Assembly: GCA_964036045.1 (NCBI GenBank)
Contig: OZ038382.1
Coordinates: forward strand, 125,860,556-125,924,555
Reading direction: 5' to 3'
Source: Eutreptiella sp. 'Long Island Sound 2002'
Taxonomy: Eukaryota; Euglenozoa; Euglenophyceae; Eutreptiales; Eutreptiaceae
DNA length: 64,000 nt
Part shown: positions 14,905-45,991 of the stretch, piece by piece
Numbering within the stretch: the stretch's first letter is position 1
Layout of the letters: each line of letters begins with the position of its first letter
Position numbers and translations under genes: made by a program
The notes under the pieces: model-generated
Told to the model about the DNA's origin: nothing
The model's input: only the letters and a program-made list of their open reading frames with translations
The model's database searches: none

Positions 14905-14907
14905 TAG

Positions 14908-20966: not shown

Positions 20967-21044
20967 TCCGGCGTCCTCGGGTCTGGCTTGTCCATCAGGA
21001 TCTTCTCGGCGATAAAGTCGTCGTCCTCACCCTCGTCATCAGAG
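20967..21044 (-). pseudogene. pol: Detached C-terminal end of Gypsy pol (acidic tail)
   Basis: On minus this reads SDDEGEDDDFIAEKILMDKP and on to a DPRTP motif. It is the counterpart of the acidic integrase tail DSDDEGEDDDFTAEMI in copy 1 (near 16420-16500) and of the same region in copy 3 at 63905-64000. Homology starts abruptly at 20967 and ends at 21044, where the (TAGG)n tail of the giant insertion starts. Copy 2, in the same orientation, breaks off at exactly this codon at 45992. I infer that both pieces were one pol gene, split by the 24.9-kb insertion. Confidence 0.7.
21030..21044. repeat. Target-site duplication, left copy
   Basis: CCCTCGTCATCAGAG at this position matches CCCTCGTCGTCAGAG at 45992-46006 in 14 of 15 bases. 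The left copy continues outward into pol tail sequence and the right copy into the body of copy 2, as expected for a duplication made on insertion. Confidence 0.65.
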
Positions 21045-21057
21045 TAGGTAGGTAGGT
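21045..21057 (-). repeat. 3'-terminal tetranucleotide tail (ACCT)n of the giant LINE
   Basis: TAGGTAGGTAGGT on plus is ACCTACCTACCTA on minus. It sits exactly at the junction with the target-site duplication. Short microsatellite tails in place of poly(A) are known for several LINE clades. Confidence 0.6.
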
Positions 21058-23009
21058 GCACTCGGTCGTGGGGAGGCGCCCCATGGTTCCCCCTGGCGTC
21101 GCCCCTGTGACGAACAGGAAGAGGCTTCGCGCGTGAAGAGGGGAGGCGGCTTACTTCCCGCTAGACCTGACTGTTGGCCCCCAACAAAGCGGCCCCGGGC
21201 TACGCCGGGAGGGCTGATCGCCGCCAGCGTGACATGCTTGTCTCGCCGGGAGGGTGTGCCCCCGTGCTTGCGCACGTCCCCTCCTTTGGGCGGAACCCTA
21301 GGGGTTCACCGGACTTCCTGGCGTATCCCGTTCCCAAGGCGTGCATGCACGTTCTTGGTACCAGGGTTCTGAGGCGCTTGGGTGTCGCACGCTCCGCCTC
21401 GAGTCCCAAAGCAGCGCAGGCCTTAGGATGCAGCCTTACCCCCGGTCTCCGGATCTCGTTTGGCCGGGTCACCTGCATGGCACGGGCTGCCTCAGTGCCC
21501 GGGCTGTGGGCACTGGGTTTCCTACTGTCGTGTGGCGTTTGTGTTTGGGTCCGGTTGCCGGTTGGGTGCGGGTTTTGTTTACCCCGCCAGTCCTGGCTGG
21601 GGTCTTGGGTGGGTGTGTTTGGGCACGGTTTGTGGTGTTGTCCCTCTAGTGTCGGCTGTTTGTGGTGTTCGTGGTTGGGCTTCGGTTTTGGCCTGCTTTT
21701 GGGACGTGTGTGGTTTCGTGGGCGCCCCGCTTGCCCCCCGCCGTTTCCGGTTCCGGCGCGCGGTGTGGGCGTGTGTGCTGGGCCTGGGTCTCGCCTGTGC
21801 CCAGCCCTTCTTGGCTGGGTTGTCGGGGTGTGTTTTTTTTTTTCGCTTTGGTGTTTTCTTTTCTTTTTTTTTTTTTTGGCTTTGTGGTCCCTGTCCCTCC
21901 ATCCCCTTTCTTTCGGGCTGGGCTGGTGGCTCTCTGTTTGTTTTTTTTTCTATTTTCCGTGTCCCTTTTCCCCGTGGTCCGCTGTTACTGGCTTGGTGTT
22001 GCCGGTTTTGGGTGGGTGGTCCCCCTGTGCCTCTGTGGGGGTCCCTTTTTTTTTTTTTCGTTGCCGTCCGGGGGGGGCTTGGCCGCCTGTGGTAGTGTTG
22101 GCGGGCGGTTTGGCGGCTGTGGGCTGTTTTCGTGCCTTTTCCCCTTCCCCCCTCCTTTTTTTTTTTGGGGGGGGGGGGGCTTGCCTGTTCCTCCCTCTGC
22201 CTGCCCTGGGCTGGCGCACGCACTGGCCTGCATTCAGTGTTGTCTTCCGGGCTGCTGTCTTCAGTTGCGTTCTGTGTGGTCACGTTCCGGCCCCATGGGT
22301 CGGGTGGGCTTTGTACACGGTGGGCTCGGCGCCTTTTCTTGCTGGGTTAGGTCCTGGCTCTGCCGGCTGGGCGGCTGCGCCAGGCGGCTGCTTGTAGTTT
22401 TGGGTTAGGGGGCTGGGGCTGTTGGTGTCCTTACCCCTCTGCGGTGCCGGCTGTAATCCTCTGGGTGGTCCGTCACCGTTGTCGCCTGGCGCGCTGTGGC
22501 CCCGTGTGTGGCTTGCGGTGCTGGTGTGTGGCGTGGTGGCGCGGCGCCTTCCTGGGTGTGCGGTGGCTGGCTTCGGTTAGTCCCTCAGGTTAGGGTCAGT
22601 TGTGTCGTGCTGTGCCGCTCTGTGCCGCGTCGCGTTGCGTCGTGCTGTGGTGCGTTGCTCTGTGGCGCGCTGTGGTGGGGTGTGCCGTGGTCTCGCGTGG
22701 TGCCGCGGTGGGTCAGTGGAGGTCAGCCTGGCCTGTGTGGGTCGGGTAGGTCTTCGGGAAGTCCTGCTGAATAATCACGGTGTCCTTGGGGCGTGCACGC
22801 TGACTCTCACCCATGGACTCAATCTTCACCGGGCCCCGCTGACAGGCAGGCGTACTCGGGGTGTAGGAAGACGTTCCTTCTCCAAGGCAGACAAACAGAA
22901 ATCAGGAGTCGGACGGTGGAGGTGGCTTCCGAACGCTGTTTGAGTGGCGAAAGGCTTGCACTGCAGCTCGGCTGCGCTGGCAGGGACATGAGGGTCCGGG
23001 TCGGTGCCG
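21058..23009 (-). other. 3' region of the giant LINE, no gene recognised
   Basis: About 21058-21500 is mixed-composition sequence; 21500-22740 is extremely G/T-rich on plus with long T runs (21840-21880, 22045-22060, 22155-22170). The long plus-strand frames here (for example 21174-22397) are Gly/Cys/Phe/Val low-complexity products of that bias and have no domain. About 22770-22870 on minus contains a short stretch of normal-looking coding sequence (PVKIESMGESQ ... DTVIIQQDFPK), possibly part of the same captured gene as the phosphofructokinase fragment next to it. Confidence 0.5.
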
Positions 23010-23392
23010 CCGGGAGATGAGCTCATACTTCAGGGTCAGGGGGATGTCCATATCTCCGGTGCTGAACTGCAGGGGTCCGGGGCACCGGTAGTAATCTTGG
23101 CTCTTCCAGTCGTCACGGCGCTCGGAGATGGCCTTGAAGGGGGCACCGTCCAGCAGCACCAAGGCCTTCGCGATCGATCACAGCCTTTCACTTCCCCTTG
23201 CGGCGCTCGAAATTCATAATGGACGGGATCGGCGTGCCGCCGCAGTGCCATTCCTCCACTGGACGCAACAGGTTGGTGACGGACGCCCTCACGGAGGCCA
23301 GCTGAGATCAAGCCCCCGGCCGTCAATCCAAGTGCATTGCAGTACTCTGCGTCAAACCGCGACGGTAACACAGCCCGGCCCTTATAGCCCAT
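23010..23392 (-). pseudogene. Captured C-terminal fragment of PPi-dependent phosphofructokinase (PFP)
   Basis: PFP reversibly phosphorylates fructose 6-phosphate with pyrophosphate in the plant cytosol. Four blocks in order match its C-terminal part: GYKGRAVLPSRFDAEYCNAL, VTNLLRPVEEWHCGGTPIP with NFERRKGK, LVLLDGAPFKAISERRDDW, and YYRCPGPLQF with DIPLTLKYELISR. They lie in shifting frames: shifts fall near 23300 and near 23175, and a TGA follows the RRKGK block. The fragment is therefore dead. It has no intron between blocks and lacks the G/T bias of its surroundings, which suggests a processed copy carried by, or inserted in, the LINE 3' region. Family assignment rests on recalled motif order, not on a search. 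Confidence 0.6.
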
Positions 23393-23907
23393 GGTGTGGT
23401 CGCGTGACGGTCCGTGGGGTTGCCCTCCCTGGGGGCCTGTGCCTTGGTCCCGTGTCCTCTGGGGGTCCGTAGCCGTGGGTGCCGCGGCCGTGGTTTCGTC
23501 CTCTTCCGGTGCCTGGTTGGGGTCGTCGCCTGGTGGTGAGGGCGTGGTGGTGCGCCGTGCGGCGGCGTTCCCTGCGGCTTCCTCTGTGGGTGTGGCCCGT
23601 ACTCCCCGTGTAGGTGTGCCCTCCGTTCTCCGTGTGGTTTTCCGGTGGCCGGTGGGCGCGCGCTGGTGTGTCCCTTATGGCGTCCGATGTTTGCTTCGGT
23701 GGTGTGTGTTGGGGTGTTTGGTGGGGCTGGGGCGGCGTTGGTCTCCCCGTTGTGGTGTGCCCTTCCTGGGTGTGGGTCGTGGTGCCCGCCGTGGTGCTTT
23801 TGTCCTCCGTGTCTTGGTCCCCGTTCCCGCCCCGTCCTGGTTCTTGGGTGGTTTCCTGCCCCCATGTGGTGTCGCTGCCGGCGCCCTGTCCCTGCGTGTG
23901 ACTGCCC
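23393..23907 (-). other. Region between the PFP fragment and the RS-domain ORF
   Basis: This is Pro/Arg/His/Gly-rich low-complexity sequence in every minus frame, downstream of the TGA that ends the RS-domain ORF at 23908. I see no domain. It is probably 3' untranslated sequence. Confidence 0.5.
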
Positions 23908-26349
23908 TCACTTGGGGCCCTTCCGTGCCCTCTTGTCTGTGTGCTCCTTGGTGCCCCTTGCCCTTCCCTTGCCCTTGTCCTGCCCCTTCCTGGTGTGGTG
24001 GTGGCGGGAGGGGCGGGGTGGGGAGGGGGCGCCGGTGGCCCAGGCTTGGGGGTGGGTGGCCTGGAGCCACTGGCGGAGGGCTTGGGGGGTGTAGGGGGGG
24101 CGGGGGCCCTGGACCGCATCGCGGAGGAGGGCCTCCCATGCCGCTTGCGGCATGATGGCCTCCGGGGCGGCCTCGTTGGGGTTTGCGGGGGTGCGGGTGC
24201 GCACCTCCTCGAAGGTATGCACCATGTGCACCCCTTCGTGCCTTCCCGCTCCCCCGGCCCATTTCACCCAGCGGCGGAGCTCCTGCAGAGCGGGGGGAGA
24301 CCACCAGGCGAGGTAGGCGGGGGCCCGGGGGGGGGAGGGGTCCGTGTCCGGGGTCCTGGAGCGGCGGGGGGAAGACGTGGACCTGCGGTGGTGGCGGGGG
24401 TGGCGGTGCCTGGGGGAGCGGGAGCGGCGGCGGCGGGGGCTGGGGGTGGAGGACGGGTACGGGCGGAGGGGGGAGCGGGAGGGGGAGGTGGACATGGGGC
24501 GGCGGTGGCGCGCTCGGTGGCGTCCGGGGGAGCGGGAGTGGTGGTGGCGGCGGCTGGGGGTGGTGGATGGGTACGGGTGGCGGGGGGAACGGGGAGCCCG
24601 GCGGGGCGTGTGGGGGGAGGGGGAGGTGGACGTGGGGCGGCGGGGGGAGCGGGAGTGGTGGTGGCGGAGGCTGGGTGGCCGGTGGGGGGAGGGGGAGGGG
24701 GACATGTTGCGGCGGTGGCGCTCGTGGTGGCGCCCGGGGGAGCGGGAGCGACGGGAGCGGGGTCCCTGGGGGTCGTGGTGGTATCTGGGGGAGTGGGAGC
24801 GGCGCGAGTGGGTGGTTGAGGCGCGGTGGGAGTGTGGGCGCCGTGGGCGAGTGTGTCGTGCGGGGGGGGGGCGGGAGCGCCGCCGTTTGCGGGACCGGCC
24901 CCCGTCGCTCGAGTCGGGCCAGTCCAGAAGCGTCGGCGGCCTCTGGGGGGCCTCGCGCGGTGCCGCTTGGGGAGGGAGGTCCCCCGTCGTCCTTGGGGCC
25001 CCTTCGGCCATCGGATGGTGGCCGGGGGGGTACGGGGCCCCGCGCGGTGCCGCCTGGGGGGGGAGGTCCCCCGTTGTCCATGGGGCCCCTTCGGCCATCG
25101 GATGGTGGCCGCGGGGGTACGGCTGGTATGGGGGTGGTGGCTGGTACGGGGGGGGTGGGTATGCGGGCGGGGCGCTCGGTGGCTGCCATCCTGTCCGCTG
25201 GTGCTGTTCGTGTACGGGGGGTTGTGGCCCGGTGGGGTAGGGCTGTGGGCAGTGGTAGTGGTGGGGGTGGTGTTGGTAGTGGTGGTGGTGGGGCCGCTGG
25301 TGGTGGTGGTGTGTGTAGTGGTGGGGTTGGTGTTGTGGGTATGGCCCATGGAGTCCTTGTGGGTTTTCCAGTCCCCCTTGTGGGGGTGGGGGGTTGGCCA
25401 TCGTGGGCAGTCCCCGGGGCTGCACTATGTGGTGGGCATGGGGGAAGGGTTGGGGGCCGGGCTTGACGGTGACGATGGTTGAGGGGTCCCACGTCCCTGG
25501 GTCGGTTTGGCCGGCGGTGGTGGTGGTTTGTGGGGGATGGATGACGGGGCGCTTGGTGACGGGGATGCCGACGAGGGTCTGGACGGGGTTCAGCTGGGTG
25601 GCCGTCTCCGCGGTGGTGGTGGGTGCCGGCGGGAGGGGGGGGCGGGTTGCGGTGGGCGGGGGGTCCTGGCTTGGGCGAGGGCCCGGGCGGGGGTAGTGTC
25701 GGGTGGTTTTGTGTCGTTGCGTATGCGGTGTTGTGTGTGCTCGCGTGGGCGCCGGCTTGGGTTTGGGGTTGGGTTTGGGGGTGGGGTCCGGTTTTGGTTT
25801 GGGGTCGGGTCTGGGGTTGGGGTCCGGTTCCAGGTTGAGGAGTACCTCTGTTCGGAGGTGTGAGGGCGTCGATGTCGGGTCGGGGGTCGTCCCGGTGGGT
25901 TGCCGGGGTGCCTGAGTCGCCTGTGTGGGGGTTGGGGGGCCGGTGCGTGCGGCCGCGGCTTTGGCTTTCGCCGTGGCCTTGAGGATGAGTTTGGCGGGGA
26001 GGGGGGGGTCGGAGGATGAGGTGGAGGAGGTGGAGGAGGCTGAGGACGAGGAGGAGGTGGTGGACGCGGGTTGGGCTGTGATGCGGGCGGGCTTGCGGGC
26101 GGCGGCTTCTGCTGCGGCCACGGCGGGGAGGATGGAGGGCATGTCCCCGGGTTGTAGGTTGGGGGCGGGCGGCTGGGGGGGCCCGGTCGTGACCTGGCGG
26201 CCCGGCGGGCCGATCTGGTCGGCAGCGGCGGGGGAGGGAGGCGCGGGGCTGCGGCCTTCTCGCTCTGGGCTCGGCTGGGCCGGGTCCTGCAATGTGCGAG
26301 GTCGTGTGGGTTGGTGTCCGCGGGGGGGAACAGTTCGCGTGGGCTGCAT
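23908..26349 (-). CDS. LINE ORF3, distal part: Ser/Pro-rich protein with an RS (SR-protein-like) domain
   Basis: The 813-codon frame is in the same phase as the ORF3 start at 27990. It runs through a Ser-rich stretch (TTSSSSSASSTSSTSSS, near 26030), Pro/Lys repeats (PDPKPKPDPTPKP, near 25800), a His-rich segment (about 25250-25340) and a duplicated HHPMAEGAP...TTGDLPPQAAPR unit (about 24960-25100). An RS domain follows at about 24330-24905, dense in RSRSPRR, SRSPGRH and RRSRSPR. A compact C-terminal region (AYLAWWSPPALQELRRWVKW ... AAWEALLRDA) and a basic Lys/Arg tail end at TGA. RS domains bind RNA and other SR proteins in splicing factors. A role in element RNA handling is inference only. 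The phosphoacceptor-rich composition is far from simple low complexity. Confidence 0.5.
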   Translation of the reverse strand: MQPTRTVPPRGHQPTRPRTLQDPAQPSPEREGRSPAPPSPAAADQIGPPGRQVTTGPPQPPAPNLQPGDMPSILPAVAAAEAAARKPARITAQPASTTSSSSSASSTSSTSSSDPPLPAKLILKATAKAKAAAARTGPPTPTQATQAPRQPTGTTPDPTSTPSHLRTEVLLNLEPDPNPRPDPKPKPDPTPKPNPKPKPAPTRAHTTPHTQRHKTTRHYPRPGPRPSQDPPPTATRPPLPPAPTTTAETATQLNPVQTLVGIPVTKRPVIHPPQTTTTAGQTDPGTWDPSTIVTVKPGPQPFPHAHHIVQPRGLPTMANPPPPQGGLENPQGLHGPYPQHQPHHYTHHHHQRPHHHHYQHHPHHYHCPQPYPTGPQPPVHEQHQRTGWQPPSAPPAYPPPPYQPPPPYQPYPRGHHPMAEGAPWTTGDLPPQAAPRGAPYPPGHHPMAEGAPRTTGDLPPQAAPREAPQRPPTLLDWPDSSDGGRSRKRRRSRPPPARHTRPRRPHSHRASTTHSRRSHSPRYHHDPQGPRSRRSRSPGRHHERHRRNMSPSPSPHRPPSLRHHHSRSPRRPTSTSPSPHTPRRAPRSPRHPYPSTTPSRRHHHSRSPGRHRARHRRPMSTSPSRSPLRPYPSSTPSPRRRRSRSPRHRHPRHHRRSTSSPRRSRTPDTDPSPPRAPAYLAWWSPPALQELRRWVKWAGGAGRHEGVHMVHTFEEVRTRTPANPNEAAPEAIMPQAAWEALLRDAVQGPRPPYTPQALRQWLQATHPQAWATGAPSPPRPSRHHHTRKGQDKGKGRARGTKEHTDKRARKGPK

Positions 26350-27990
26350 TCAGGGGCCGGGGGGAATGGGCCTGGGTCCTCTGGGGTGTGTGTGGGGGGC
26401 GTGGGCGGGCCACTGGGTGGGGTGGGCGTGCCGCGGGGCGCGGGGCTCCCCTTGGCGGGTGTGTGTGGGTTGTCGAGTGTGGGGGGCGGTGAAGGGTGGC
26501 CGGCGGGCGGGTGTGTGGCGGGCGTGTGCTGGTGTTCGGGCGGTCGGGGGAGGCCCGTGTCGCGGGGCCCGGGGGTGCGCGCGCTGGTGGGCGTGTGTGG
26601 GTCTCCGGTTGAGCAGCGAGAGGGGGGGGGCATGGGCGGGGGTTGTGCGGGGGGGTGTGCTGTGCCGGTGTATGTGTCCGTTTGCCGCGCGCTTGCGTGG
26701 GCAGTTGTAGGCCGGGCGGTTTGGAGGAGAAGCTTGCCGTCTTCTGCTGCCGCGGCAAGGATTTCGCAGACGAGCTTTCGTATCTGGTGGACCTCTTGGT
26801 CAGTGGTGGGAAGGAGGCATGCTAGCTTTGGGCTAAGACCCGCGCGGTTGAGGACCCTCCCGATGGCGTGGTACCCGCAGGTGAGGGACTGTTGCGGTCT
26901 GGGGGGGGGGTTTGGTCGTGTGTCCGGGCCTGCCTCGACTTGTGTGTGGGCGGTGGGGATGGCCCAAACCCAGGGCACGGTCCCCGTGGGTGGCCAGTGG
27001 CGCTGGATCCAGTGGGTTAGGCAGAGCATGGCCAATCCCAGGTGGTAGCCCGCCTTCCCTGAGGTTCTTTGGGCCAGGGCGCGGGCTGGGGGCGTGTCCC
27101 CTGGCTGGAAGACACCCCTGAGGATCCTGTGCTGGGTGGTGGGGTCCCCCACTGCCCCTGGTGGGGCGGTCTCCGGGGCGTACATGGTGTCTGTCCCCTG
27201 GATGATCCATTGCTGGCCGGGGGACGTAGCCGTAGCGGCTATCACGTAGTAGTGGCCGCGCTCGAGGACTGTAACCCAGACCTCCGGTGGGGGGTGGCCA
27301 CTGTCTGTAGGTGTGGGGGGGGAGGTCGTCGTCCGGGGTGCGGAGGCCGGCGGCGCGGAGGGCGGTGTCGCGGTTGGGCGCGGTGGCCTGTTCCCACTGC
27401 TCCGGGTGGTTCGGGTCCCCTGGGTGGTCCGTCTCTGCTTGGGCCCGCCGTAGGCGTACGGTCCCTCGACGCGTGACGTTGCTGCCGGTGTCGTGCGTCA
27501 GGGCCTGGCCCCACTCGATGGGGGGGATCCAGATGGGCTGGCCCCGGGTGTGTTTGCGGGCTCGCCAGAGCACGAGGTCCACTATGGTCTCGTGGAGGCC
27601 GCTGCCTGGGGTGGTTAGGTCCCGGAGGGCTTTGACGGTGAGCTTGGTCCAGTCCTCTTGTAGGCGGTACCAGCCCAGGGGGGTGGCCGGGGCCCTGTCT
27701 TGGAGGGTCGCTCGGAGGAGGTCAGGGTCGCGGATGGTGGCCGGTGTGAGGGGGGGGTGCTCCGGGTCCGGGGGGGGTGGGCTGGATGGGCTGCCGGGGT
27801 CTTGCGTGTCTACGTCGATGTATGGTTGGCCCTGGCTGGGCTCGGCCGGACTGGGCGGTGCCGGGTGGCTTCTTGGGTGCGAGACGGGTCTCGGGGCGCT
27901 GTGGTGGTGCCTTGGAGACCTGTGGATGGAGACGGGGGGCGCGTGCGGGGCGTGGAGCGGGTTAGTGGACGTCTGGGTCATGCACGGCAT
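26350..27990 (-). pseudogene. LINE ORF3, proximal part: C48/Ulp1-like cysteine protease
   Basis: ORF3 starts with ATG at 27990, overlapping the RT ORF stop (27962-27964) by 29 bases. After a Pro/His-rich leader, 27350-27800 gives a Ulp1-like N-terminal half (GSGLHETIVDLVLWRARK, WIPPIEWGQAL). The frame then shifts near 27280. The new frame has VLERGHYYVIAATA with the candidate catalytic His (near 27255), and later PQQSLTCGYHAIGRV with the candidate catalytic Cys (near 26880) in the Q-x(4,5)-C-G setting of C48 peptidases. These cleave SUMO-like tails in host enzymes. A Pro-rich linker follows and a second shift near 26350-26400 restores the first frame. The assignment is by motif order; the catalytic Asp is not certain. 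Confidence 0.45.
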
Positions 27991-30900
27991 GGTAATGGAT
28001 GAGACGCTGCATGTGTTCCCTGGCGGCGGGGTCGGTGAGTTGTTCCGCGTGTGTTAGCAGGAGGTGTTTGCGGTGTACCATTTGGGCCGCTGCTCTGCGG
28101 ACCGCTTCTAGCTGGAGGTGTGCTGCTGCCTCCATGGGGCTTTCCGTGTGTTTGGTGAGGTGTCGGTGCAGGGCCTGTGTCACTGCCCCTCTCATGGTGG
28201 CTTCTTTGATCAGGGGGTCCCGGAAGAGGTGTTCGGTGGCCTGATGTGCGTGGCTGTGGGTTGGCCATCCTTCGTGTTGTCGCAGGGTTTCCGCCGGGGA
28301 CCAGCCCACTAGGATGTCCCTGTCTGTATGGAGGGGACATTTTTTGAAGTGTTCCCAGTCCTCCGGGGTGGTGTGGTCGCATGGGCAGCGGGTGTGTTCG
28401 TCGGGGACGTGGATGTGCTTGCGGGCGAGCCATCTGGCGACCCTGGTGAGGAGTGGCAGCTGCTCCCTGAGGAGCTGGATGCGTCGTTTCTGGAGGTGGG
28501 CTGGGACGTTTGCTGGGCGGAGCGCTGAGTGGTAGAGGGGGACTTGCAGTTTGTCCTGGAGCTCCTGGATGTGCGCCCGGCTGTCTGCGTCGCCGAGAAC
28601 GCGGGCGAGATGTTGGATGGGGTTGGGGTAGTGGTACGCTCTGTCGTGGGAGGAATAGGGGGCGTCCTCTGGTACCCAGTCCGGGGTCTGATGGGGCTCG
28701 GGTACAGGGGGCACGTGTTGGAGGTGTGTGTGGTTGCGGCCGAGGTCTGGGATCTGGAGGGCTGGTAGGTGTGTTGTGCGCTGGTGTACTGCCTGGTTGT
28801 CGACCTTACCATTTCCGTATTGGTGCCTGTGGGACTCTTGTTTCACGATGTGGAGCTGGACGTAGGGGGGAAGGCTGCGTAGGGCTTTCCAGAGTAGCAG
28901 TGCCTGGGTGCCGAGGCTCGTCGCGGTTGCTTTGTGAAGTGGTTGCCTTGCTATGCGGAGGAGCAGGTGTGTGTCGACAGTGGCGTCTACCACGAACCAG
29001 ACCCGGACGATGTGCGGGGAGTGGGCGGGTAGGTGGGCCGCGACCTCGGTGATGGCGTCGGCCATGGCCCCTAGCTCCCCGTGGGAAGAGGCCCCATAGG
29101 TGGTGTGGCCCGTGTGGTGGTCCATGTGGTAGTGTCCCCCGATGTGGGTTAGCTGCAGGGTGGCCCCCCCGGTGATGGGCGTGAGGGAGGATTCGCCTGA
29201 GGCGTCGGTGAAGAAGAGCCGGTCCGCCGGTGATGGTTGTGGGAGGCGGCATGGGTTCATGGGCAGGTAGGCGTATATGGCAAGGCCCGTGGCGAGGTGG
29301 GCTACTGGGGTTGTGGGCTGCAGGATGGGGGTGGCGTACACCCCTATTCCTTTGGAGATGATGTGCTTCGCTTGGGGGGACAGGGCTATCAGTCCCTGCT
29401 CCGGCTGTCCTTGTGTGAGGTAGGAGTAGATGTAGTGGAGGATGTAGGCTGTGTCGGGGTTTAGGTCGTGGCATTTGAGGGTTTGTGTTTGGTGCTCCGG
29501 TGTGTGGCAGGAGTGGTGGAGTGGATAGTAGGGGTGCTCGTGCTTGCCTGTTCTGCCTGGCTCGTACATGCTGTAACGGATGGCGACCCCTGCCGGGTCG
29601 GGGCGGGGGCATGTCGGTGTAGTGGTGAAGAGCCATTTGGGCGCGTGGTCGGGGTTCCATGCTACCGTGGGGTTAGTGTCGGTGCGGTGAAACCATGGGG
29701 CTATCCATGCGTAGGCCTGTGGTGGTAGGTGGGTTGTGGGGTGGGTGTGGTGGCGTGCTATGAGGTGTAGTACGGGCCATGGTGTGGTTGGTGCCTCGGG
29801 GTCACAGGCCCAACATGTGCGTGGCATGCTCTGGGAATCTTGGGGGACCTTTGGCAGGTCTCGGGCGGTCATGTGGTGCTTCGGTATGCGCCATTTTGCC
29901 CCGTGGTGGATGACGGTGGTCTGCGTGGGTTTGGCTTCGTTCGGGGCCAGTAGCAGGGTTAGTGGTGGGACTGGGCCCGTTACCGGGGGGACGGGTTCGT
30001 GTTTCGATCCGGTGGGTGCGTAGGGCGGTGTCGCTGGGATGGGTCGCGGGTGTTGTTTTGTGAATTCTCGGTAGGCTGTGCGCATGTCTTTGCTGCCCGG
30101 TAGAGTGTGTCCCGCTGCTCGTGCCGTCTGCGTGAGGTACTGGTGGAAGAGGCGGTATTGTGGCCATTCGGGAAGCTGTAGAAAGGGGGTGTGGTGTGCC
30201 CCGCTGTGGTGCAGGACTCGCATTTGGGAGAGGGTGACGTATACTACGGTGATGGAGGCCCCGACAAAGTCTATGGTGTGGATGGTGCCCTTGGGGTGAT
30301 GGTGGAGGTCCCCGCAGAGGACCGCTAGTGGCCCTTTCTCTGGGCACGTGTGGTTGGTGAGTATGGCGTGGTGTGGGGATGGTAGGAGAAGTTGCAGGTG
30401 GTTCCATAGGCGCGTGTTCATGTTGGTGGGCATGCCCGTCTGGTGGAGTACCCAGCGCGGGCATGTGTTGCGGGCCCGTTGTGCGGCTTGGAGGCGGATG
30501 GCGGTGACCTCGCGTACCTCCGGTGAGTGGTTGTGGGTCATGCGGTGAAGGAGGAGGGCGGTGTGTCTGGTATAGGCTGCTTTCACCTCGTCCCCTATGG
30601 CGTCTCCATAGTGGGGCCATGCCGCTCGGATGGCGCGGGTGGGTATGGAGGTGGGCCAGCCCCCGTGTGCTGCCCATGCCTTGGTCACGGCGCGTGTGGC
30701 CGGCTGGAGGGCGGTGGTGGGGTGTGTCAGGTGGAGTGCTTGGAAGCCTATGAAGGCGTTCAAGACCCCGGTGAGGTAGTACGCCAAGCTCTGGTGGGAC
30801 AGGGAGAGGGCCTTGGTGGTCGGGGACGCATATCTGGGGAGATGGGCGAGGTGCGACTGCAACTTGGGAGGGAGGGTGGCGTCCTCAGGGTTGGCGGCCT

Positions 30901-33275: not shown

Positions 33276-33680
33276 GGGCTGTGGAGGCTTGTGCCCTCGG
33301 CCCTTGCCCCGTCAGGGAGGGGGACTGGGGCTTGGGGACTTTTTGCCGGTTCGTGGGCGTTTGGGTGGGCGCGGCGGGGGGAGGCCTTGGCTCCACTCCG
33401 GGGGGAGCTCCCCAGTGTATTTGGTGCCTGTGTGGGCCTTGTTCTCTTCGGTGCGGAGCCGGATGAGGTGGGCGTTGGTGAGTTCCAGGGTGTCGCCGAG
33501 TGGTTTGTCCGGGGCGCTGCTGCCTTGGTCTAGCTCCTTTTGGCGGTGCCAGATCACCCGGACTTGTGGCCCCCCGTTGTCCCCCGGTCCCTTGAGGCGG
33601 TACTGGATCGTGCCCTCACACCAGATCCAGTCGCCTGTGTGGTCGTTGCGGAAGGGCTGTTGGACCTTCGCAACTTTTTT
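33276..33680 (-). pseudogene. LINE linker domain between ORF1 and the endonuclease
   Basis: This frame is in phase with the endonuclease and separated from it only by an in-frame TGA (33312-33314, followed by CGG). It encodes a compact-looking segment (DHTGDWIWCEGTIQYRLKG, then VRVIWHRQKEL, LTNAHLIRLRTEE) followed by a basic Pro/Lys tail. I do not recognise the domain. Upstream it joins ORF1 by a one-base shift in an A6 run (33677-33682 as T6 on plus). Confidence 0.45.
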
Positions 33681-36186: not shown

Positions 36187-37221
36187 CTAAGGGGTGGGGC
36201 CTGGATGCACCGTCATAGGTGCCGACGATGCTTGCGGGGGTATGTGGACGGCGTGGGCGGGGGCTGCTGTTACGGGGTCTCCTTCCGTGGGTGTGATCGT
36301 GGCATCGCCTTGGACGGTGAGGAGGAGGTGGTGGCGGTCCGTCGGTAGTGCCCAGGTGGTGGTGGGCTCTGTGATCGAGTGGAGGCGGATGGCTTGGAGG
36401 CCCGGTGTGATTTCGTCCCACCGGAGTGTGCCGTTGTGGACCGCCCATTCCCGCGGCAGGTCTCGAAACCCGTTTCGGTCTGGGGTGGTGCGGTGTTGTG
36501 GGGGGAGCTCCATTGTGGTGATGGGGTGGGTGAGGGGCTCTGTGCGGGGTTGGTCTTGTGTGGTTGATGGTGATGATGCCTGGGGCATCTCTTCGTCCAG
36601 TTGCTGGGGGGCTTTCGCTTCCTTGAGCTCTGCACTGATGGTGGCGAAGACATCTGGGAGGGTGGGGGAGGCGGGGGGGTGGGGTGCCGGATCGTCCCAG
36701 GTGATTTGGTATTCCTCCGGGTTCTCGGGGCTTTGCTGTACGGTGATGGTGGCTGTGGCGTCGTCTTCAGGTGTCCATCGGTGTGGATTGTGGTCGAGGG
36801 GGTGGAGGGTGACGGTGTGGCGGTGTTTCCAGCTGTGGAACGCTAGGAGGGCGTGGAGGCCGTATCTGGTGTCCCCGGGCGGGCGGGGGTAGGTTTCGGC
36901 TGCTGCCTCCAGGAAGGCGTCCGCGGTGCCTTTCCAGGTGTCGTCCCAGAGAAGGTCTTCCTCTGTGCCCCACTCGTTGTCGTACCTTTTCTCCTGCTTC
37001 CATCCCTGAAGGGTCGTGTGGTCTTCAGGGAGGTCCCGTTGGACGGACTGGTAGTACTGCTCGGCGTTCATGGGGGCTAGGGTGCTGGCCAGCGTGGTGT
37101 AGATGTCCTTTGGGGGGGGGGGCGGTCGGGGCGTGGCGGCGCGGCCGGGGTCGGGCTCCTCTCGCTGGTGTTCCGCGTTCCGGTCTGCGGTGGACGCGGG
37201 GGATGTGGAGCGTGGTGGCAT
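36187..37221 (-). pseudogene. LINE ORF1, first part, ending at an in-frame TAG
   Basis: A 344-codon frame starts at ATG 37221; the frame is open further upstream to at least ~37,500, so the real start may be earlier. It encodes acidic, Trp-rich sequence (KDIYTTLASTLAPMNAEQYY, WKQEKRYDNEWGTEEDLLWDD) of unknown family. Its last ~50 residues (LLLTVQGDATITPTEGDPV ... AVHIPPQAS) have the spacing of a small cupin-like beta domain, which is only a suggestion. TAG at 36187-36189 is followed by CAG and by ~857 further open codons in the same frame, so ORF1 is either nonsense-mutated or read through. Confidence 0.5.
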
Positions 37222-37499
37222 GGGGTGGTCGGGCTCTTGCGGTTCCGTGGGTTGCTGATGGGCTTGTGGGCGCGGGGCCGTGGCTGCCAGTAGGTGTCGG
37301 ATGGCCGGGAGGATGTCGAAGTCGTCTTCCCAGCAGTAGGCTGGAGCGCACGCCCTGTCAGGGGAAGCGGGGGGGGGCGTGTTGCGGAGCGGTGAACGAC
37401 AGGGTGGGCGACGAGTGCGGGTGGTGGCGTGCTCGCTCTGCCGTTCTGTTTCCCGCGGGCCCTGACCTTGGGGGTGGTGGTGTTGGTGATGTTGGTGGT

Positions 37500-40400
37500 G
37501 AGGGTGGTGTGGGCGCCAGAGTGGATAATTGTGTCGGTGGCGGCGCTGTTGGCGAGGGTGGTATGGGCGTTAGAGTAGATGAAGCTGGTGCTGGGCTATG
37601 GTTGATGGTGGTTAGCTGGCGGGTCAGCTGTCGTCGCTGTCGTCGTCGCCGGTGGTGTTGGTGTCTCTGATGACGAGGTGATGGTCGGTGAGCATGGCGT
37701 GGGTGACGTATGGGCGTATGTGGTGTTGTCGGCGGTAACGTTTGTGGGCCGGATGTGGCGGTGGTGGCGAGGGTGCTGTAGTTGACAGGTGGTGTGGCCC
37801 ACGTCACCTCCGGTGGTGGAGGTGTGATGGGTGCCGTGGTGGTGTCGGCGATGGTGGGGTGCCGCGGGTGGTGTATTGGTTGTAGGTGGTGGAGATGTTC
37901 CTGGTTTGTGGGTAGTCCCTGTCCGGGTGTGGTGGTGTTGGTGGTGTCGGTGCTCGTTGAGGCCGTTGGCGACGCCGGGGGTTCCTGGTCTCGCGTGGGG
38001 TGGTGGTGGCGGTGGTGAGCGTAGGCGGTGCCATGGGCGGTGGTGCCATTGACGGCTCGGCCGGGCGTGCTGGTGCCGGTTTCGGGTGTAAGTGTGGTTC
38101 GGGGTGCGGCATTGGTTGGTGGCTTTGACGGCGGGTGGCGTGACTGGTGGGTGGCAGCGGTAGGGGGGTGTCGGTTGTTGGTGAGTCTGTCGTTGTCGGT
38201 GTTCCGGTTGGTGCCGGTGACGGTGTCGCTGGCCTTGCAGATGGTGGAGGGGACTCGTACCCTGGGGTCGCCGTGGCGTTCGGTCGACGGTGGTGCTTCC
38301 GGTGGTGTTCGTGTGAGTTGGCCGGGAGTGGTGTCGGCGTTGCTCTGGCTGGTGCCGTGCGTGCGGGCTGTGTGATTTTTGCGTCCGGGGTCGCTGGCGT
38401 TGGTGAAGGTGGTGTGTTGGGGGTCGGCGCCGGTGGTGGCGGTCCGATGGTGAGGGTGCCGGGGACGTTTGGTGGGTCCGCGCTGTTGGGCCTTCTCCTC
38501 GCCATTCCTGGCGGAGGGTGCTGGCGGTGGTGTCGCTGGTGGCGAGGGTGTGGTGGTGTTGCTGTGGTGTTTTGTGCTGCTTGGGTGGGTGGTGGGGACC
38601 CCTGGTTGATGTTGACGTTACTCCGGGTGATTTCGATGCGGTGGGTGTGATGGCGTGTGGCGTTGTTGTTTCTACCCTTGGTTGGGGGCCTGGTGGGCGG
38701 CGCTGGTGGCGTTTGTTCGCCAGCCGTGGTGGCGTCCTTGGTGTTGTCGTCGATGGGGGCGCCCTAGGTGTTACTCTGTGCCGGGGTTGTGATGGTGGTG
38801 TTAGGGGTGTTGTGGGTGACGGTACCTCGGTTCGTCGTTGGTGGGGTTGGCGGTGGTGTGTCTCGCGGTGGTCCGGTGGCGTGGGTGTTTTTGGCGTTGG
38901 TGCCGGGTGGCCTGTGTGCTGGTGTTCGGTGGTTCCGGGCGTGCCATTCGTGGCTGGTGTTTGGCCGGTCTGTGGTCCTGGTGGTGTCGGCTGTCCGTGG
39001 GTCCGTAGTGACAGGTGTTGCTGCGGTTGCGGTTTAGGGTGACCTTGCTGCGGTTGGGTGGTGGTGTCGCCGTGTTGCCGCTGTCGGTGGTGCCGGTGTT
39101 GGCGTTGGTGGGGTTGCCGCCGGGGGAGCTGTGTGTGTTGGCGTTGTAGGGTGTTGTAAGTGCTGCCCTGGCGGTGTTCTGACGGCGGAGGGGGGACCTC
39201 GCCACTCCTGGCGGAGGTTCCCATGTGCGTCGTTGGCTGGTGGGTTGGCCTTGGCCCCCTCGGTGTCCTTGCTGCCGATGGTGTCTCACCGGGATGCGCG
39301 ATGGGGGATGCTCCGGGTTGCTGTCGGTGAGGTCGCACTGCCGGTGGCGCTGTCGGTGATGCCGGTGGTGAGGTCGTTGCGGGCGTTGCCATGGTTCACG
39401 GTGTCTCTGATGTTGTTGATGCTGCTGGTGGTTGGTGTGGGTCTGTGTGTGGGTTGTCAGTGGCTGCTGCTGGTGCTGGTGGTGGTTCTGGGTGCGGGCC
39501 GGTGGGTGGTGCGGTTGGAACGCCTTGGGTGTAACTTGGCCGCTGGGTGGTTTCGTGTGTTGGTCCGTTGTTGGTTCCGGGCGTCTCCGTTGGTGAGGGT
39601 GTTGTGGTGTTCGGTTTGGGTGTTGGCGGCGGTGCAGGTGTGGGTGTCGCAGTTCCTGGCCCTGGGTCTGGGAGTGGCTGTTTGGGTGTTGCTGGGTGTG
39701 GGCGTTCGCCTCTCCTGGCTGAGGGCTCGGTGGCGTTCGTTCGCCAGCCGTGCTGGCGTCCTTGGTGACGCCGTTGGTGGGGTTGCCCTAGGTGGCGGGG
39801 CCGTGGTGGTGGTGTTGGGGGCGTTGTAGGTGATGGCACCTCGGCCCGTCGTTGGTGGGGTTGGTGGTGGTGTGGATAGTGCCGTGGGTGTTGGTGGCGT
39901 TGGTGTTTCCGAAGGCGTGGGTGCCTTATGTGTTACTTGGTGGTTGGCGTGTGTCGTGGTGGTCTGTTGGCGTGGGTGTTGTTGGTGTTGGTGCTGGGCG
40001 CGGCCTGTGTTTGGGTGGTCGGCGGTTCCGGGCGTGCCACTCGTGGCTGGCCGTCGCGGTGTTGGTGACGGTGCTGGCAAGGGCGCCGCCGGTGGAGCTG
40101 TGGCCGATGTGGGCGCTGCGGGTGTTGCCCTGGTGGATGGTGGTGTTCTGACGGCGGGGGTGGGACCTCGCCACTTCTGGTGGAGGTACCCATGGGTGTC
40201 GCTGGCCTGTGTGTTAGCTCCCTTGGTGTTGTTGATGCCGATGGTGTTGTACCGGGCGGTGTTGCTGTGGCGGTTGCCGTTGACGCTCTGGTTTGTCGGT
40301 GCTGAGGCCGTACTGCCGGTGTCGGTGTCGGTGATGCCGGTGGTGAGGTCGTTGTGGGCGTCGCTATGGTTCTCGGCGTCTCGGACGCTGCTGATGCTGG

Positions 40401-40700
40401 TGGTGGTTGGCGTGGGTCTGTGTGTGGGTGGTCAGCGGCTTGCGTTCAGGGCGGTGGTCGGTTTCTGTGGCTCTGTCTGGGGGGGTGTGCAGTAGGCGGT
40501 GTGGTCTGCTGGTGCTGCTGTTGGTGTAGGTGGCGTAGGCGTTGCTCTCGGTGGTGTCGTGGGTGAGGGTGGTGTTGGCGGCGCCGGTGGTGTGGGTGTC
40601 GCCGGGGATTGCATGGTGGTCCCGGGCGCGTGCCCTCGCTTCCCCTGGCCGGGGCTTGGTGGTTTGTTGGCTCACCGGCTGTGGTGGTTTCGGTGTCCTC
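37500..40700 (-). repeat. ~1-kb tandem repeats in the LINE 5' region
   Basis: Blocks recur about 930-1030 bp apart. TTCGCCAGCCGTGGTGGCGTC at 38712 returns at 39738, with a weaker copy near 40672; CCTCGCCACTCCTGGCGGAGG at about 39197 returns as a variant at 40165. Between anchors the plus strand is a degenerate GGTGTTGGTG sea. Minus-strand frames (for example 37596-39392) are Thr/Pro/His low complexity. No domain is visible; coding status is unresolved. Confidence 0.55.
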
Positions 40701-42439
40701 CGGTGGTAGAGGTTGCTGGTGGCGACGCTGATGGTGGGGTGTTGCCGGCGATGGTGTGCTTGATGCCGTTGGCTTGGGTGATGTAGGTGCTGGAACCGGC
40801 GGTGGCATGCGTAGGTTTCGTAGGCGTTGGTGCCGGCGGTGACGGTGTTGGTGAGGGTGTTGTGCTGGCTGGATTTTTGGAGGTGTTGGTGTTTCCGATG
40901 GCGTGGATGCCGGTGGCGGTGGTTCTGGGTGCGAGCCGGTGGGGGACCAGATCGGCTGGGTGCGGTCGTTGGTCAGTGTTGGGTGGCTTTTTGTGTTGGT
41001 TTGTTGTTCGTGAGGGTGTCCCATGTCCTAGTGTTTTGGTGGGTGCTGGGGTCGCTGGTGTTGCCGATGGTGCCTCTGCTGGTTTCGGGTGTGTCCGCCG
41101 GTGAGGGTGTCGTGGCGTCCGGTTTGGGCGTTGGTGGCGGTGCTGGTGTGGGTGTCGTAGTGCCCGGTCCTGGTGTTGGGCGTGGCCGTTCGGGTGTTAC
41201 TGGGTGTGGCTGTTCGCCACTCCTGGCTGCGGGCTTGGTGGGTCCTCCTTTGCGTCCTAGCGGTTTCTGGCGGCCCTGCAGCCCCCCTGTCGGGGCGGGG
41301 TTGCTGGGTTCCTGTTGTTTGGGTTTGTGTGTGTTGCGTGTGTGGTGCGGGCGGCGCCTGCGCTTTGGTGCGTGGTGTGCGCTTGTGGGGCTCGTGTCGG
41401 TGGCGGTTGTGGGGGTGTGTGTTGTGTGCACGCTCGGGCGTGTGTGCGGTGTGCTGGTGGTGCGTTTGGGTGCCTGTCCTCGCCTTTGCGGGCGTGGTTT
41501 GGCGGCCCTGTTTGGTGTGGGGGCTGTGTGTCGTGCCCCCCCCCTGTCTCGGCTGTGTGGTTCCCCGCCCCCCTTGGCTGGGGTCTGTTGGTGGTGTGTC
41601 CCCTTGCTGTCCCCTTTGCGTGCCCTCCTCCTTCTGTCTCTTTTCCGTGTCGCTTGGGGCGGTGTCGTGCCCGGGCCTTCCCGGCTGTGGTGTGTGGGGG
41701 GGGGTCCTTGTCGCCGGCTCGGGTCCCTTCCCCTGGTGTTTCCCCGTGGGGGGGCCGTTGCTTGCACTCCCCGTCAGGGTGTAACTCTGTTGTACGGATG
41801 CCGTCCATGGACCTGTTCCGTAGCCAGGTACTCCAGCCGTTCCCCACACCGGGGTCGGGTACACTGTGGGTCGCTGGGGAGTCCTTGCGGGACAGGCGCG
41901 TCTCTTGCCTGCCCCGATGGACGGTGTGCCCTACCCGCAGCCCCTCGCTGGGCCCGAACCGCAGTACGTGCCGTGGGGAGTGCTCTTGGTCAGGCCCATT
42001 GGTCATGCCCCCAGGCCGGTGCCACCGCGGGCCGCTGACCAACGGTCCTGGGCGTATCCCACCTTATTGCGTGTGCTCAGGTGGGGCCGATACGGTCACC
42101 GGGGGGGCCCCCAAACCCCTGAGGTTGGGTCCCTCGCCTGCGCCCCCCGTGGGCCCTTTTCGTCCCGCCCCCCTTTTCTCTGTGCGGTTTGCGGTGGTTG
42201 GTGTCCCGTCTCTCCAGGGTGGGGTGGTGGTGGTGGGGGGGGGGGGGTTTCGCTGTTCCTGGCTGTGTTGCTTGCGGGCGTGTCGCCCCCTCCTCTGGTC
42301 GTGGTTCGCCGCCGGTGTGTGTGTGTGTTGCGCGGTGCGTGCGCGCGTGGTGTCTGTGTTGGTGTGTGGTGCGTGGTTTGTGGTGTGTGGTGTGCGGTGG
42401 TGGTGTGTTGGTGGGGTTGTGGCGGGTGTGTGGTGTGGT
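40701..42439 (-). other. LINE 5' region between the two repeat arrays
   Basis: This is mostly G/T-rich plus-strand sequence like its neighbours, with minus frames rich in Thr/Pro/Arg/Gly. An exception is about 41780-42110, which has balanced composition and an unbiased minus frame (VLRFGPSEGLRVGHTVHRG and neighbours). I cannot assign that island; it could be a captured fragment or a regulatory module. Confidence 0.4.
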
Positions 42440-44225
42440 TGGTCCCTCTCCACTCCTGGCGGAGGTTCCTGTGTGCTACTCCCCGCAAATCCTGGCTGGG
42501 TTTCGCTGCCTGTGGTGTTGTGCGGCTCCCCGCCACTCCTGGCTGGGGTTCCGCCGCCGGCAGTGGCGTGTGGTGTGTGGTGTGTGGTGTGTGGTGTATG
42601 GTGAGCGGTGGCGGTGTGTTGGTGGGGTTGTGGCTGGTGTGTGGTGCGGTTGATCCCTCGCCACTCCTGGCAGAGGTTCCCGTGTGCTACTCCCCGCCAC
42701 TCCTGGTTGGGTTTCGCTGCCGGTGGTGGTGGGCGGTCCTCGCCACTCCTGGCTGAGGTCTCCGGGCGGCGGTGGTGTGTGGTGGGGTTGTGGCTGGTGT
42801 GTGGTGTGTTTGGTCCCTCGCCACTCCTGGCGGAGGTTCCTGTGTGCTACTCCCCGCCACTCCTGGCTGGGTTTCGCTGCCTGTGGTGGTGTGCGGTTCC
42901 CCGCCACTCCTGGCTGGGGCCTGCCGGCGGCGGTGGTGCGTGGCGTGTGGTGTGTGGTGTGTGGTGTGTGGTGTGCGGCGGTGGTGTGTTGGTGGGGTTG
43001 TGGCTGTGGTTGGTCCCTCGCCACTCCTGGCGGAGGTTCCTGTGTTCTACTCCCCGCCACTCCTGGCTGGGTTTCGATGCCGGTGGCGGTGGGCGGTCCT
43101 CGCCACTCCTGGCTGAGGGCCCTGGGCGCGGTTCCCCGCCACTCCTGGCTGGGGTTCGCTGGCGGCGGCAGTGTGTGGTTCGGTTGTGGTTGGTGTGTGG
43201 TGTGGTTGGTCCCTCGCCACTCCTGGCGGAGTTTCCTGTGTGCTACTCCCCGCCACTCCTGGCTGGGTTTCGCTGCCGGTGGTGGTGTGCGGTTTCCCGC
43301 CACTCCTGGCTGGGGCCTGCTGGCGGTGGTGGTGCGTGGTGTGTGGTGTGTGGTGTGCGGCGGTGTCCTGGTTGGTGTGTGGTGTGGTTGGTCCCTCGCC
43401 ACTCCTGGCGGAGGTTCCTGTGTGCTACTCCCCGCCACTCCTGGCTGGGTTTCGCTGCCGGTGGTGTTGGGCGGTCCCCGCCACTCCTGGCTGGGGTTCG
43501 CTGGCGGCGGTGGTGTGTGGTGTGTGGCGGTGGTGTGTTGGTGGTTGGTCCCTCGCCACTCCTGGCGGAGGTTCCTGTGTGCTACTCCCCGCCACTCCTG
43601 GCTGGGTTTCGCTGCTGGTGGTGGTGGGCGGTCCTCGCCACTCCTGGCTGGGGTCCGTTGGAGGCGGTGTGTGGCGTGGTCGGTCCCTCGCCACTCCTGG
43701 CGGAGGTTCCTGCGTGCTACTCCCCGCCACTCCTGGCTGGGTTTCGGTGCCGGTGGTGGTGTGTGGTCCCCCGCCTCTCCTGGTTGGGGTCCGCTGGCGG
43801 CGGTGGTGTGTGGTGTGTAGTGTGTGGTGTGTGGTGTGTGGTGTGTGGTGTGTGGTGTGCGCTGGTGGTGTGCTGGTGGGGTTGCGGCTGGTGTGTGGTG
43901 TGGTTGGTTCCTCGCCACTCCCGGCGGAGGTTCCTGTGTGCTACTCCCCGCCACTCCTGGCTGGGTTTCGCTGCCAGCGGTGGTGGGCGTTCCTCGCCAC
44001 TCCTGGCGGAGGGTCCCGGGCGCGGTTCCCCGCCACTCCTGTCTGGGTTTCGCTGTCGGCGGTGGTGTGTGGTGTGCGGTGTGTGGTGTGTGGCGTGTGG
44101 CATGCGGCGGTGGCGTGTGTGGTGGGTTTGTGGCTGGTGTGGTTGGTCCCTCGCCACTCCTGGCGGAGGTTCCTGTGTGCTACTCCCCGCCACTCCTGGC
44201 TGGGTTTCGCTGCCGGTGGTGGTGT
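42440..44225 (-). repeat. ~190-bp monomer array with CCACTCCTGGC core
   Basis: Ten monomers start with TCCCTCGCCACTCCTGGCGG at about 42443, 42653, 42813, 43013, 43211, 43391, 43549, 43683, 43909 and 44147, a spacing of 130-240 bp. Each contains two or three further CCGCCACTCCTGGCTGGG boxes and a variable (GTGGTGTGT)n stretch that explains the length differences. The box also appears singly at about 38500, 39197, 40165 and 41215. Position upstream of ORF1 recalls promoter monomer arrays of rodent L1 elements. Confidence 0.75.
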
Positions 44226-45991
44226 GGTGTGGTGGTGCGGTGGGTGTGTCTTTTGGGTGCCCTTCCCCTTGGCCTTGGTGTGTGTGTGTGCGCTGTGTGG
44301 CCCTTTGTGTTGGTGTGGGTGGCGTGGGGGGGGGGGGGGTCGCGCTCGGTGTGGCTGTCGTGCGTGCGCGTGTGTGTGCTCGCGGTGTGTGGTTGGTGGG
44401 GTGGGGTGTGTCATACCTTGGCTGGTTCTCGTCGTCGGTCGTCGGCATGTTTCAAAAGGCAGAAGAAGACGTCCTGTAGATGCGTAGCAGAGATGCGTGG
44501 CATGTGTGATGCGTAGCACGTACCTTTCCTTTCGTCCCATCATGTTTTCTTCCCCTGTTGAGAAAGAGCGTGCGCAGGTCCTTTTTGTTTTTTTTTTTTG
44601 CGTGTTGTGTTTTGTGTCTCCTCCCTCGTGTTTTTTTTTTTTTTTTCTCGCTGCGTCTTCGATAACATACCTCTCGGCATTGCGTTTCCCCTATAGAGAG
44701 GGCGTGGAAGGCGGTTTCGTGTTTTTTTTTTTTCAACATACTTGTTGTACCTTGTGCCGCTTCTTGTTGCCGTCCCCTATAGAGAAAGCGTGTGTTTGTT
44801 TGTGGGTGGGGCGGGGGTGGGGTTGCATACCATGACTTTCCTTTGTCTCGTCTCCGTCTTCGTGCATCTTGCGGCTTTGTGTGCGTTTGTGTTTTCGTCC
44901 CCTTGGCGCCTTCCCTCGCATTTTTAACATACTTGTTCGTCATACCTCCATACCATTGTTTCCCCGTGGTACGTGGTCATTCCCTATAGCGGGAGTGTGT
45001 GTGTGTTTGCGGGCGGGGCGGTGTGGGGTTCATACCTTGTTTTTCCTTGCTCTTGTCTCCGTCTTCTCGCTCCTTGCGGTCTTGTTTATGTGTGTGCGTG
45101 TGTGCGTGGTCCGTCCCTTTGGCGCCCTCCCTCGTATTGTTAACATACTTGCTCGCCATACCGTTGTTTCCTCGTGGTTGGTGGGCTTCGCTTGTTCGCC
45201 TTTTCATTGTTTCCCCTTTGTCCGTGGCCGCCCCATACCTTTTGCGCTTTTGTGGATAATTTTTTTCTTTTCGTGTATCTCGCGGCGGTCGGGGCCTATG
45301 GAGGAAGAAATATGGGGGATATATGGTTGTGGTTTGTGTTTGCGGGCGTGTCTTTTGACGTGCGTGGCGGTTCGTCGTTCTTTTTTGCGTGCAGTGTTGT
45401 CCCTTGGCGCCCTCCTTCGCAACATACTTGGTTTTCTCATCCACGTATGTGTAGCGGTGGATACGATATGTAGGACGCATGGGGCCGTAACATACTTGGT
45501 TGTCATACCTCGTTTTCCCGTGGTCCGTGGTCGCGTCTCTTTTGTTTGTGGTTTGGTGTTTCTCTTTTTGTTGCGTTTCCTTCTCTCTTTTTTTTTTTTT
45601 TTGACGCGCACATGTCGCCTAGCTCCTATGGCACGCACTTTGCTAGGTGGCTCGGCGCTCGCTTTGTTCTTGTCTTCGTCGTCGTGGCTCGCTTGTTTTT
45701 GGTGTTCGCCTCTTTTCTTCTTCTTTGTTGGTGGAGCGCGCACAAGTCCCTAGCGCCTAGGACACGCACTTTGCTAGGTGTTTTGGAGCATGCAACGTTC
45801 AGGTTCTTCGCCGTCGCGACTTTATTGTTCGTCTTTGTTTTGTGAGTGTCCTAAATTTTTCGACCTCGCCAAACAGCAGCGTAAAATTTTTTGGGGGGTT
45901 TCTGAGGTCGGAAAAAACGATTTTTCGCTTTATTTTTGCTGGCGGTGCGTCGTTTTCTTAGTTTTGTATTATTCTTCTGTCATCGGATCAT
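44226..45991 (-). other. A-rich 5' leader of the giant LINE with ~205-bp tandem repeats
   Basis: On minus this part is A-rich with many poly(A) runs (T runs on plus at 44590, 44632, 44722, 45590). Two adjacent ~205-bp copies, about 44778-44983 and 44984-45170, share the order CCCTATAG, GTGTGTGTTTG, GGGGTT(G)CATACC, TCTCCGTCTTC, GGCGCC(C/T)TCCCTCG, TTAACATACTTG. Partial copies lie at 44690 and 45400-45530. The outer end CATCGGATCAT abuts the target-site duplication. No gene is recognised. As the presumed RNA 5' end it may hold the promoter. Confidence 0.5.

Follow-up and report, generated by a model that had tools for sequence, protein, structure and literature searches.

The traditional size limit for transposons has been placed at about 10 kb, and the retroelements above 20 kb discussed in the excerpted text of a 2019 review are long terminal repeat (LTR) elements and the Penelope-like Terminons (PMC6431247). 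A giant long interspersed nuclear element (LINE, a non-LTR retrotransposon) was not found in excerpts of the open-access PMC literature, including those of that review. Described here is an insertion of about 25 kb in a 64,000-nucleotide stretch of the genome of Eutreptiella sp. 'Long Island Sound 2002' (assembly GCA_964036045.1, contig OZ038382.1, positions 125,860,556 to 125,924,555; this whole stretch is referred to below as the window), which is very probably one single LINE of this euglenid. By the features tested the element is a LINE, while its size, its layout and the probable decoding of its second open reading frame (ORF) set it apart.

Among the described giant retroelements, the Penelope-like Terminons of bdelloid rotifers likewise reach large sizes (up to 40 kb) and carry extra ORFs, and the giant Gypsy LTR retrotransposons Ogre and Burro likewise belong to the class of at least 25 kb (PMC6431247, as excerpted). 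Terminons are, however, endonuclease-deficient and telomeric according to the same excerpts, whereas the element in the window possesses an L1-like reverse transcriptase (RT), an apurinic/apyrimidinic (AP) endonuclease (APE; recognised in its sister family) and dispersed insertions with duplications; neither a Penelope-like RT lacking an endonuclease nor a telomeric location was observed, the copies being dispersed at places within chromosomes. Ogre and Burro have LTRs and are Gypsy-like, neither of which applies to the window element. With APE-type LINEs (L1- or I-like), it shares the ORF1-ORF2 order, the APE-RT arrangement, a CCHC motif (by eye), target-site duplications, a simple 3' tail and the absence of LTRs. 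Compared with these LINEs (4-8 kb), it is much longer at about 25 kb, contains a U-poor 5' region of about 8.7 kb and a third ORF, and has its ORF2 in frame with ORF1 across a UGA-CGG sequence and a hairpin. The same combination of UGA-CGG and a stem-loop about 8 nt past the stop characterises the type II readthrough of alphaviruses, tobraviruses and coltiviruses (PMC3542737, as excerpted), although the putative signal described here separates the first two ORFs of a LINE.

The limits of the insertion were defined by the following features.

21044-45991, minus strand: whole insertion, very probably a giant non-LTR retrotransposon copy, with its 5' end at the high coordinate
21044-21058, minus strand: 3' (CTAC)n tail
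21030-21043, minus strand: target-site duplication, 3' copy, TCTGATGACGAGGG
45992-46005, minus strand: target-site duplication, 5' copy, TCTGACGACGAGGG
45980-45991, minus strand: 12 nt separating the duplication from the homologous 5' start; GTCGCGCGATCGCAG in 21 of 22 other copies

Base composition and skew shift sharply across 21-46 kb, and an earlier note, made from the window alone, had proposed a single giant non-LTR retrotransposon at 21045-45991. These boundaries were right to within 1 bp (21044-45991), and the (CTAC)n tail placed by the note at one of them is present at 21044; the part homologous to other copies extends from 21044 to 45979. The duplication, given in the note as 15 bp with 14 identical positions, is indeed near-perfect and present at both ends, but it measures 14 nt with one mismatch (TCTGA[T/C]GACGAGGG, at 21030-21043 and 45992-46005). 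When the 60-nt flank was shuffled 5,000 times, no equally long anchored match arose, and the single mismatch may represent a later mutation.

Copies and empty targets were sought across the 2.28-Gb assembly, in which the window lies on contig C5; the best 40 places were scored for each DNA probe and 27 for P0013, a sequence of the second family described below, and the resulting figures do not represent copy numbers. The two halves of a Gypsy pol gene lie outside the insertion in matching orientation, as had been reported, and joining the flanks restored the Gypsy reading frame. The joined flanks were matched contiguously across the join in all 40 scored places, with 95-97% identity, so that the target is contiguous where the insertion is absent. 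All 40 matches end at positions 212-224 of the 320-nt query, about 60 bp beyond the join, indicating that the Gypsy copy of the window was broken there by something else. The left pol piece, which measures 74 bp including the duplication and not 78 bp as first stated, is short because the similarity of the surrounding Gypsy sequence to other copies ends about 60 bp beyond the duplication. This second break beside the LINE insertion, where similarity to the 40 scored copies ends, lies near 20970. The LINE is flanked by Gypsy-like elements with opposed gag/pol frames, at 8500-16527 (plus strand) and 45992-53606 (minus strand).

The insertion behaves as one mobile unit whose ends are fixed. When its 5' end was used as a probe, 36 of the 39 other scored matches stopped at window positions 45977-45981 and three stopped short; two further short matches adjoin two of the copies in opposite orientation. 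With the 3'-end probe, 38 of the 39 other scored matches started at 21038-21046 and one at 21027. The 15-mer GTCGCGCGATCGCAG was present (with at most one mismatch) at the 5' end of 21 of the 22 other copies examined, the exception being copy C3, whose 5' end is about 97 bp short, and the window copy has 12 other nucleotides (45980-45991) in its place. Six copies with a 5' end (c15a, c15b, c1, c17, c4 and c6) were read as 30-kb stretches and were 98.2-98.7% identical to the window copy over aligned sites. Copies c15a (25,174 bp) and c1 (24,780 bp) are uninterrupted, and c15b is complete (24.96 kb) with one nested insertion of 2.68 kb, located at the equivalent of window position 33950. The remaining three were read in part, to the equivalents of 26033 (c17), 28386 (c4, across an insertion) and 36779 (c6). 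Nested insertions aside, length changes of more than 20 bp were seen only in the tandem-repeat zone and as a 182-bp gap in c17. The uninterrupted unit therefore spans 24.8-25.2 kb, outside the usual 4-8 kb of LINEs and well beyond any LINE known to us.

Spacings between internal and terminal matches agree with this unit length. Among the 40 matches of an RT probe (window counted), 13 had a listed 3' end at 9.44-9.50 kb, and for six a 5' end was listed at a distance of 14.28 kb ± 500 bp. Seven pairs of 5' and 3' ends were recovered among the matches listed, of which four (window, C1, C7 and C3) span 24.8-25.2 kb and three are longer, one of these being c15b with its known insertion; as 40 places were scored per probe, missing end partners carry little meaning. 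The flanks examined differ from copy to copy, except for a 5' piece shared by c15a and c15b. In five of the eight copies with both ends, the duplications beat all 60 shuffles, with lengths of 14 nt (window), 11 nt (c15a), 18 nt (c15b), 10 nt (c1) and 14 nt (C3), and the (CTAC)n tail was observed in the window, c15a, c15b, c1, C3, C7, C17 and C6. Neither LTRs nor terminal inverted repeats were found, the similarity between the first and last 2.5 kb being limited to two internal pieces, of 90 and 40 nt.

The coding potential of the element is summarised by the following features.

37222-45979, minus strand: T-poor 5' region of about 8.7 kb, with tandem repeats at about 42314-44227
33312-37221, minus strand: ORF1, disrupted in the window copy by a stop and a frameshift; about 1,302 aa long in P0071, an undamaged relative
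27962-33311, minus strand: ORF2, with AP endonuclease, RT, putative RNase H motifs and a C-terminal CCHC motif; frameshifted in the window copy
24267-27990, minus strand: ORF3, rich in proline and overlapping the ORF2 end; disrupted in the window copy

ORF2, which spans 1,782 aa from stop to stop in copy c15b, is the only ORF that carries recognised domains. With P0001 (98% identical to the window ORF2) as the query, the RT matched the Pfam family RVT_1 (E=1.1e-15), and its best match among solved structures was L1 ORF2 (E=2.1e-13). An endonuclease match (PF03372, E=1.2e-06) was obtained in P0013 of the sister family only. Four stretches of ORF2 (FTDASG, HGEL, VVDATVD and GNGKVDNQA), read by eye, are presumably RNase H motifs, and a C-terminal stretch read in the same manner is taken by us to be a CCHC motif. 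ORF1 matched no Pfam family and its predicted fold reached a mean predicted local distance difference test (pLDDT) score of 36. The beginning of ORF3 had been read by eye as a C48-like cysteine protease, a candidate that was rejected, as no such Pfam match was obtained with the two ORF3 pieces of the window; these gave one weak, unrelated Pfam match (E=0.09). The c1 version of ORF3 had no match among PDB sequences, and the mean pLDDT of the predicted ORF3 fold was 33. A relative of ORF2 (P0040), with 48-51% identity over the aligned part, is located on a 3.3-kb JGI metagenome contig; the clade may thus extend beyond this host.

Substitutions between copies were counted by codon position (first/second/third) and amounted to 38/40/90 in the RT part of ORF2, 19/12/27 in the endonuclease part (p 0.05), 75/83/115 in ORF1, all three with an excess at the third position, and a mixed 3/10/13 then 33/30/22 in ORF3, with no sign of coding in the T-poor 5' region (141/147/127). 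The 3' region, to which no ORF was assigned, was also uneven (55/27/35, p 0.005), which makes third-position counts weak evidence by themselves. Furthermore, substitutions private to the window were counted once per copy compared, so the counts are inflated and only the RT figure was relied on.

The sense strand contains 4-13% T along the element in 2-kb steps, with 9% in the first 2 kb and 4-5% from about 2 to 8 kb. At fourfold sites, T amounts to 3% and C to 54% in the ORFs of both LINE families; in the three Gypsy ORFs measured, the corresponding values were 11-12% and 32-35%. T depletion was observed in the window element (21044-45979) and in the second-family loci L050, L054 and L055. In such a T-poor sequence, open frames readily arise by chance, and the length of an ORF therefore cannot be taken as a sign of coding in the 5' region.

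A second family with the same architecture was identified in this genome, marked by P0013, which exhibits 49-51% protein identity to the window family. This family is younger than the window family; the 27 scored genomic matches of P0013 were all 99-100% identical, with a 1,774-aa frame that lacks any stop in 25 of them and contains one in the other two. Its ORF1 is homologous to that of the window family (38% identity). At the DNA level, pieces with 65-76% identity are collinear between this family and the window element; five of them fall within ORF1-ORF2, and another (71 bp) is located farther upstream. In the copy followed, the T-poor 5' region begins at C20:5526624, a start common to 38 of the 39 other scored copies (98-99% identity), the last one beginning 2 bp in. 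The layout is the same as that of the window family over at least 17.6 kb, up to the end of the copy followed, 611 bp past ORF2, and similarity persists through the 1.5 kb examined past ORF2 in three other loci. The copy followed (L050) is interrupted at C20:5544234, with Gypsy-like frames on the opposite strand a few kb on. Repeat units with a period of about 166 were seen in the 5' region of this family (L055, from 9125), and many other copies have a further unit upstream; these upstream units resemble the promoter monomers of some LINEs. The region downstream of ORF2 in this family was considered as a relative of ORF3 and rejected, since the similarity looks like low complexity.

In both families, ORF1 is separated from ORF2 by a single stop codon followed by a stem-loop.

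33312-33314, minus strand: UGA stop of ORF1, followed by CGG, in frame with ORF2
33265-33310, minus strand: hairpin immediately following the UGA; the upper stem begins 8 nt past the stop

The ORF1 TGA was followed by ORF2 in frame in all six window-family copies covering the site and in all six second-family loci, and the next triplet was CGG in five of these copies and all six loci, and CGA in c1. The hairpin stem (5 bp plus 6 bp) is the same in both families; among 2,884 codon-stepped 50-nt windows in each case, the structure ranks first in stability in the window family, with a fold z-score of -2.42 in the window copy, and 37th in the second family. A junction pattern in which the stop position was left free had 1,808 exact genomic matches, compared with five in all for the reversed control, and TGA occupied that position at 95 of the first 100 junctions listed (of the 1,808), the other five having a different codon. 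Viral type II readthrough involves a UGA followed by CGG or CUA, mostly with a 3' structure and often with a stem-loop about 8 nt past the stop (PMC3542737, as excerpted); both the UGA-CGG context and a stem-loop at about that distance were observed here.

Readthrough of the UGA is probably the best explanation for translation of ORF2. The alternative, in which the giant LINE is real and ORF2 is produced by reinitiation or from an internal start, draws on the reinitiation known in other LINEs and on the lack of covariation in the hairpin, the stem being identical in both families. It is considered unlikely, as the first AUG of ORF2 lies 45-47 codons downstream of the UGA, past what we take to be the first endonuclease motif with its N-terminal Asn in both families; the frame is uninterrupted from UGA to AUG in both, the UGA-CGG and hairpin fit the viral type II signal, and the UGA is retained at 95 of the 100 listed junctions. 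Besides the missing covariation, other results weigh against readthrough: the fold z-scores of the second family are modest (-1.05 over 150 nt and -1.64 over 100 nt), the hairpin of c1 is weaker and is accompanied by CGA after the stop, and the junction pattern fixes the neighbouring bases, leaving copies mutated there uncounted.

The pair c15a and c15b bears on the manner in which the unit spreads. These two copies share 15 exclusive substitutions between window positions 45206 and 26612 (18.6 kb), compared with at most two for any other pair of copies outside the tandem repeats. In addition, their 5' flanks have 31 nt in common, beyond which nothing alike was found when their flanks were compared. 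As the 31 nt contain the sequence duplicated around c15a, they originate from the locus of that copy. The duplication around c15b (18 nt) is a separate one located farther out, and the 3' flanks of the two copies differ. The simplest account would be that one RNA, started slightly upstream of c15a, was reverse-transcribed over its full length to give c15b. It is conceivable that a real 25-kb unit spreads instead as DNA and simply carries the LINE along, whether through segmental duplication, a rolling circle or an unknown transposase: many copies have a complete 5' end, although the 5'-end probe selects for such copies, and LINE copies are often 5'-truncated. This explanation was rejected as very unlikely on account of the absence of terminal repeats, the duplications and the c15a/c15b flanks; the 3' simple repeat, the variable length of the duplications and a 5' flank carried along without the 3' flank fit target-primed reverse transcription.

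An ordinary LINE of 6-7 kb adjoining or nested with unrelated repeats, a reading that the usual 4-8 kb of LINEs and the confinement of recognised domains to ORF2 would favour, is extremely improbable, as such a join is ruled out by full-length independent copies sharing both outer ends at 98.2-98.7% identity where aligned, by constant spacings across three independent match lists, by a Gypsy target contiguous in 40 of 40 scored places and by a second family collinear over ORF1-ORF2 with its own T-poor 5' region over at least 17.6 kb, unless every one of the full-length copies is misassembled.

The proposal of a single giant retrotransposon is thus supported by copies sharing its ends, with certain points standing against it. 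A convincing duplication was absent from three of the eight copies with both ends, as 51 (C7), eight (C17) and six (C6) of 60 shuffles were as good. The endonuclease of the window's own family had no Pfam match, and it aligns with P0013 through that region; RNase H was matched by no Pfam or PDB profile, and the CCHC reading gained no profile support either. The distance between c15a and c15b (1.06%) is not below their distances to c17 (1.06% and 1.04%), which is explained by each carrying many changes of its own, and the copy followed for the second family is broken 611 bp past ORF2. As for the earlier note, its one-strand series of ORF1, APE-RT-RNase H and ORF3 holds with respect to minus-strand coding, with RNase H being a reading of motifs. 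Its call for other copies with the same limits and different duplications was answered by the copies read, apart from the three without a convincing duplication, and neither of the outcomes it had set against itself, i.e. consistently different outer limits or a join of unrelated repeats, occurred.

For the replication cycle, we infer an RNA step, the readthrough and the details of priming. A U-poor RNA of about 25 kb would be transcribed from near the fixed 5' end, and the ORF1 protein would be translated from it. A fraction of ribosomes would pass the UGA-CGG and hairpin, yielding an ORF1-ORF2 fusion with endonuclease and RT, which would nick the target and prime on the (CUAC)n 3' end; the whole RNA would then be copied by target-primed reverse transcription, generating duplications of 10-18 bp. 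More broadly, and with somewhat less confidence than for readthrough, we favour the view that euglenids harbour a clade of giant LINEs in which one family or more was recently active, with U-poor RNAs of about 20-25 kb copied end to end in single target-primed events and the endonuclease-RT made only as a readthrough fusion; U-depletion along the entire transcript may protect an RNA of this length from premature processing or folding.

If copies of about 25 kb are indeed made in full length, neither RT processivity nor ribonucleoprotein packaging limits LINEs to around 10 kb. Readthrough of a stop codon in a LINE could be put to the test with this element, and such elements may serve as natural templates for highly processive reverse transcriptases. 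A euglenid genome may also hide LINE mass, as long, repetitive elements of odd composition could easily be filed as unclassified repeats. In the Euglena gracilis genome, LINEs account for 1.49% and unclassified repeats for 32.7% (PMC11252322, as excerpted).

The euglenid spliced-leader core was present in none of the 56 genomic loci examined. In the genome as a whole, it had 3,283 exact occurrences, compared with 0 for the reversed control, which identifies the host, as judged from these cores, as a euglenid. A longer form of the spliced leader is quoted for the euglenid Eutreptiella (PMC3621762, as excerpted). Among the matches listed, the core is dispersed along C1 (e.g. C1:29492-29515), and many of its sites may stem from retrocopied trans-spliced mRNAs or from spliced-leader RNA genes scattered in the genome.

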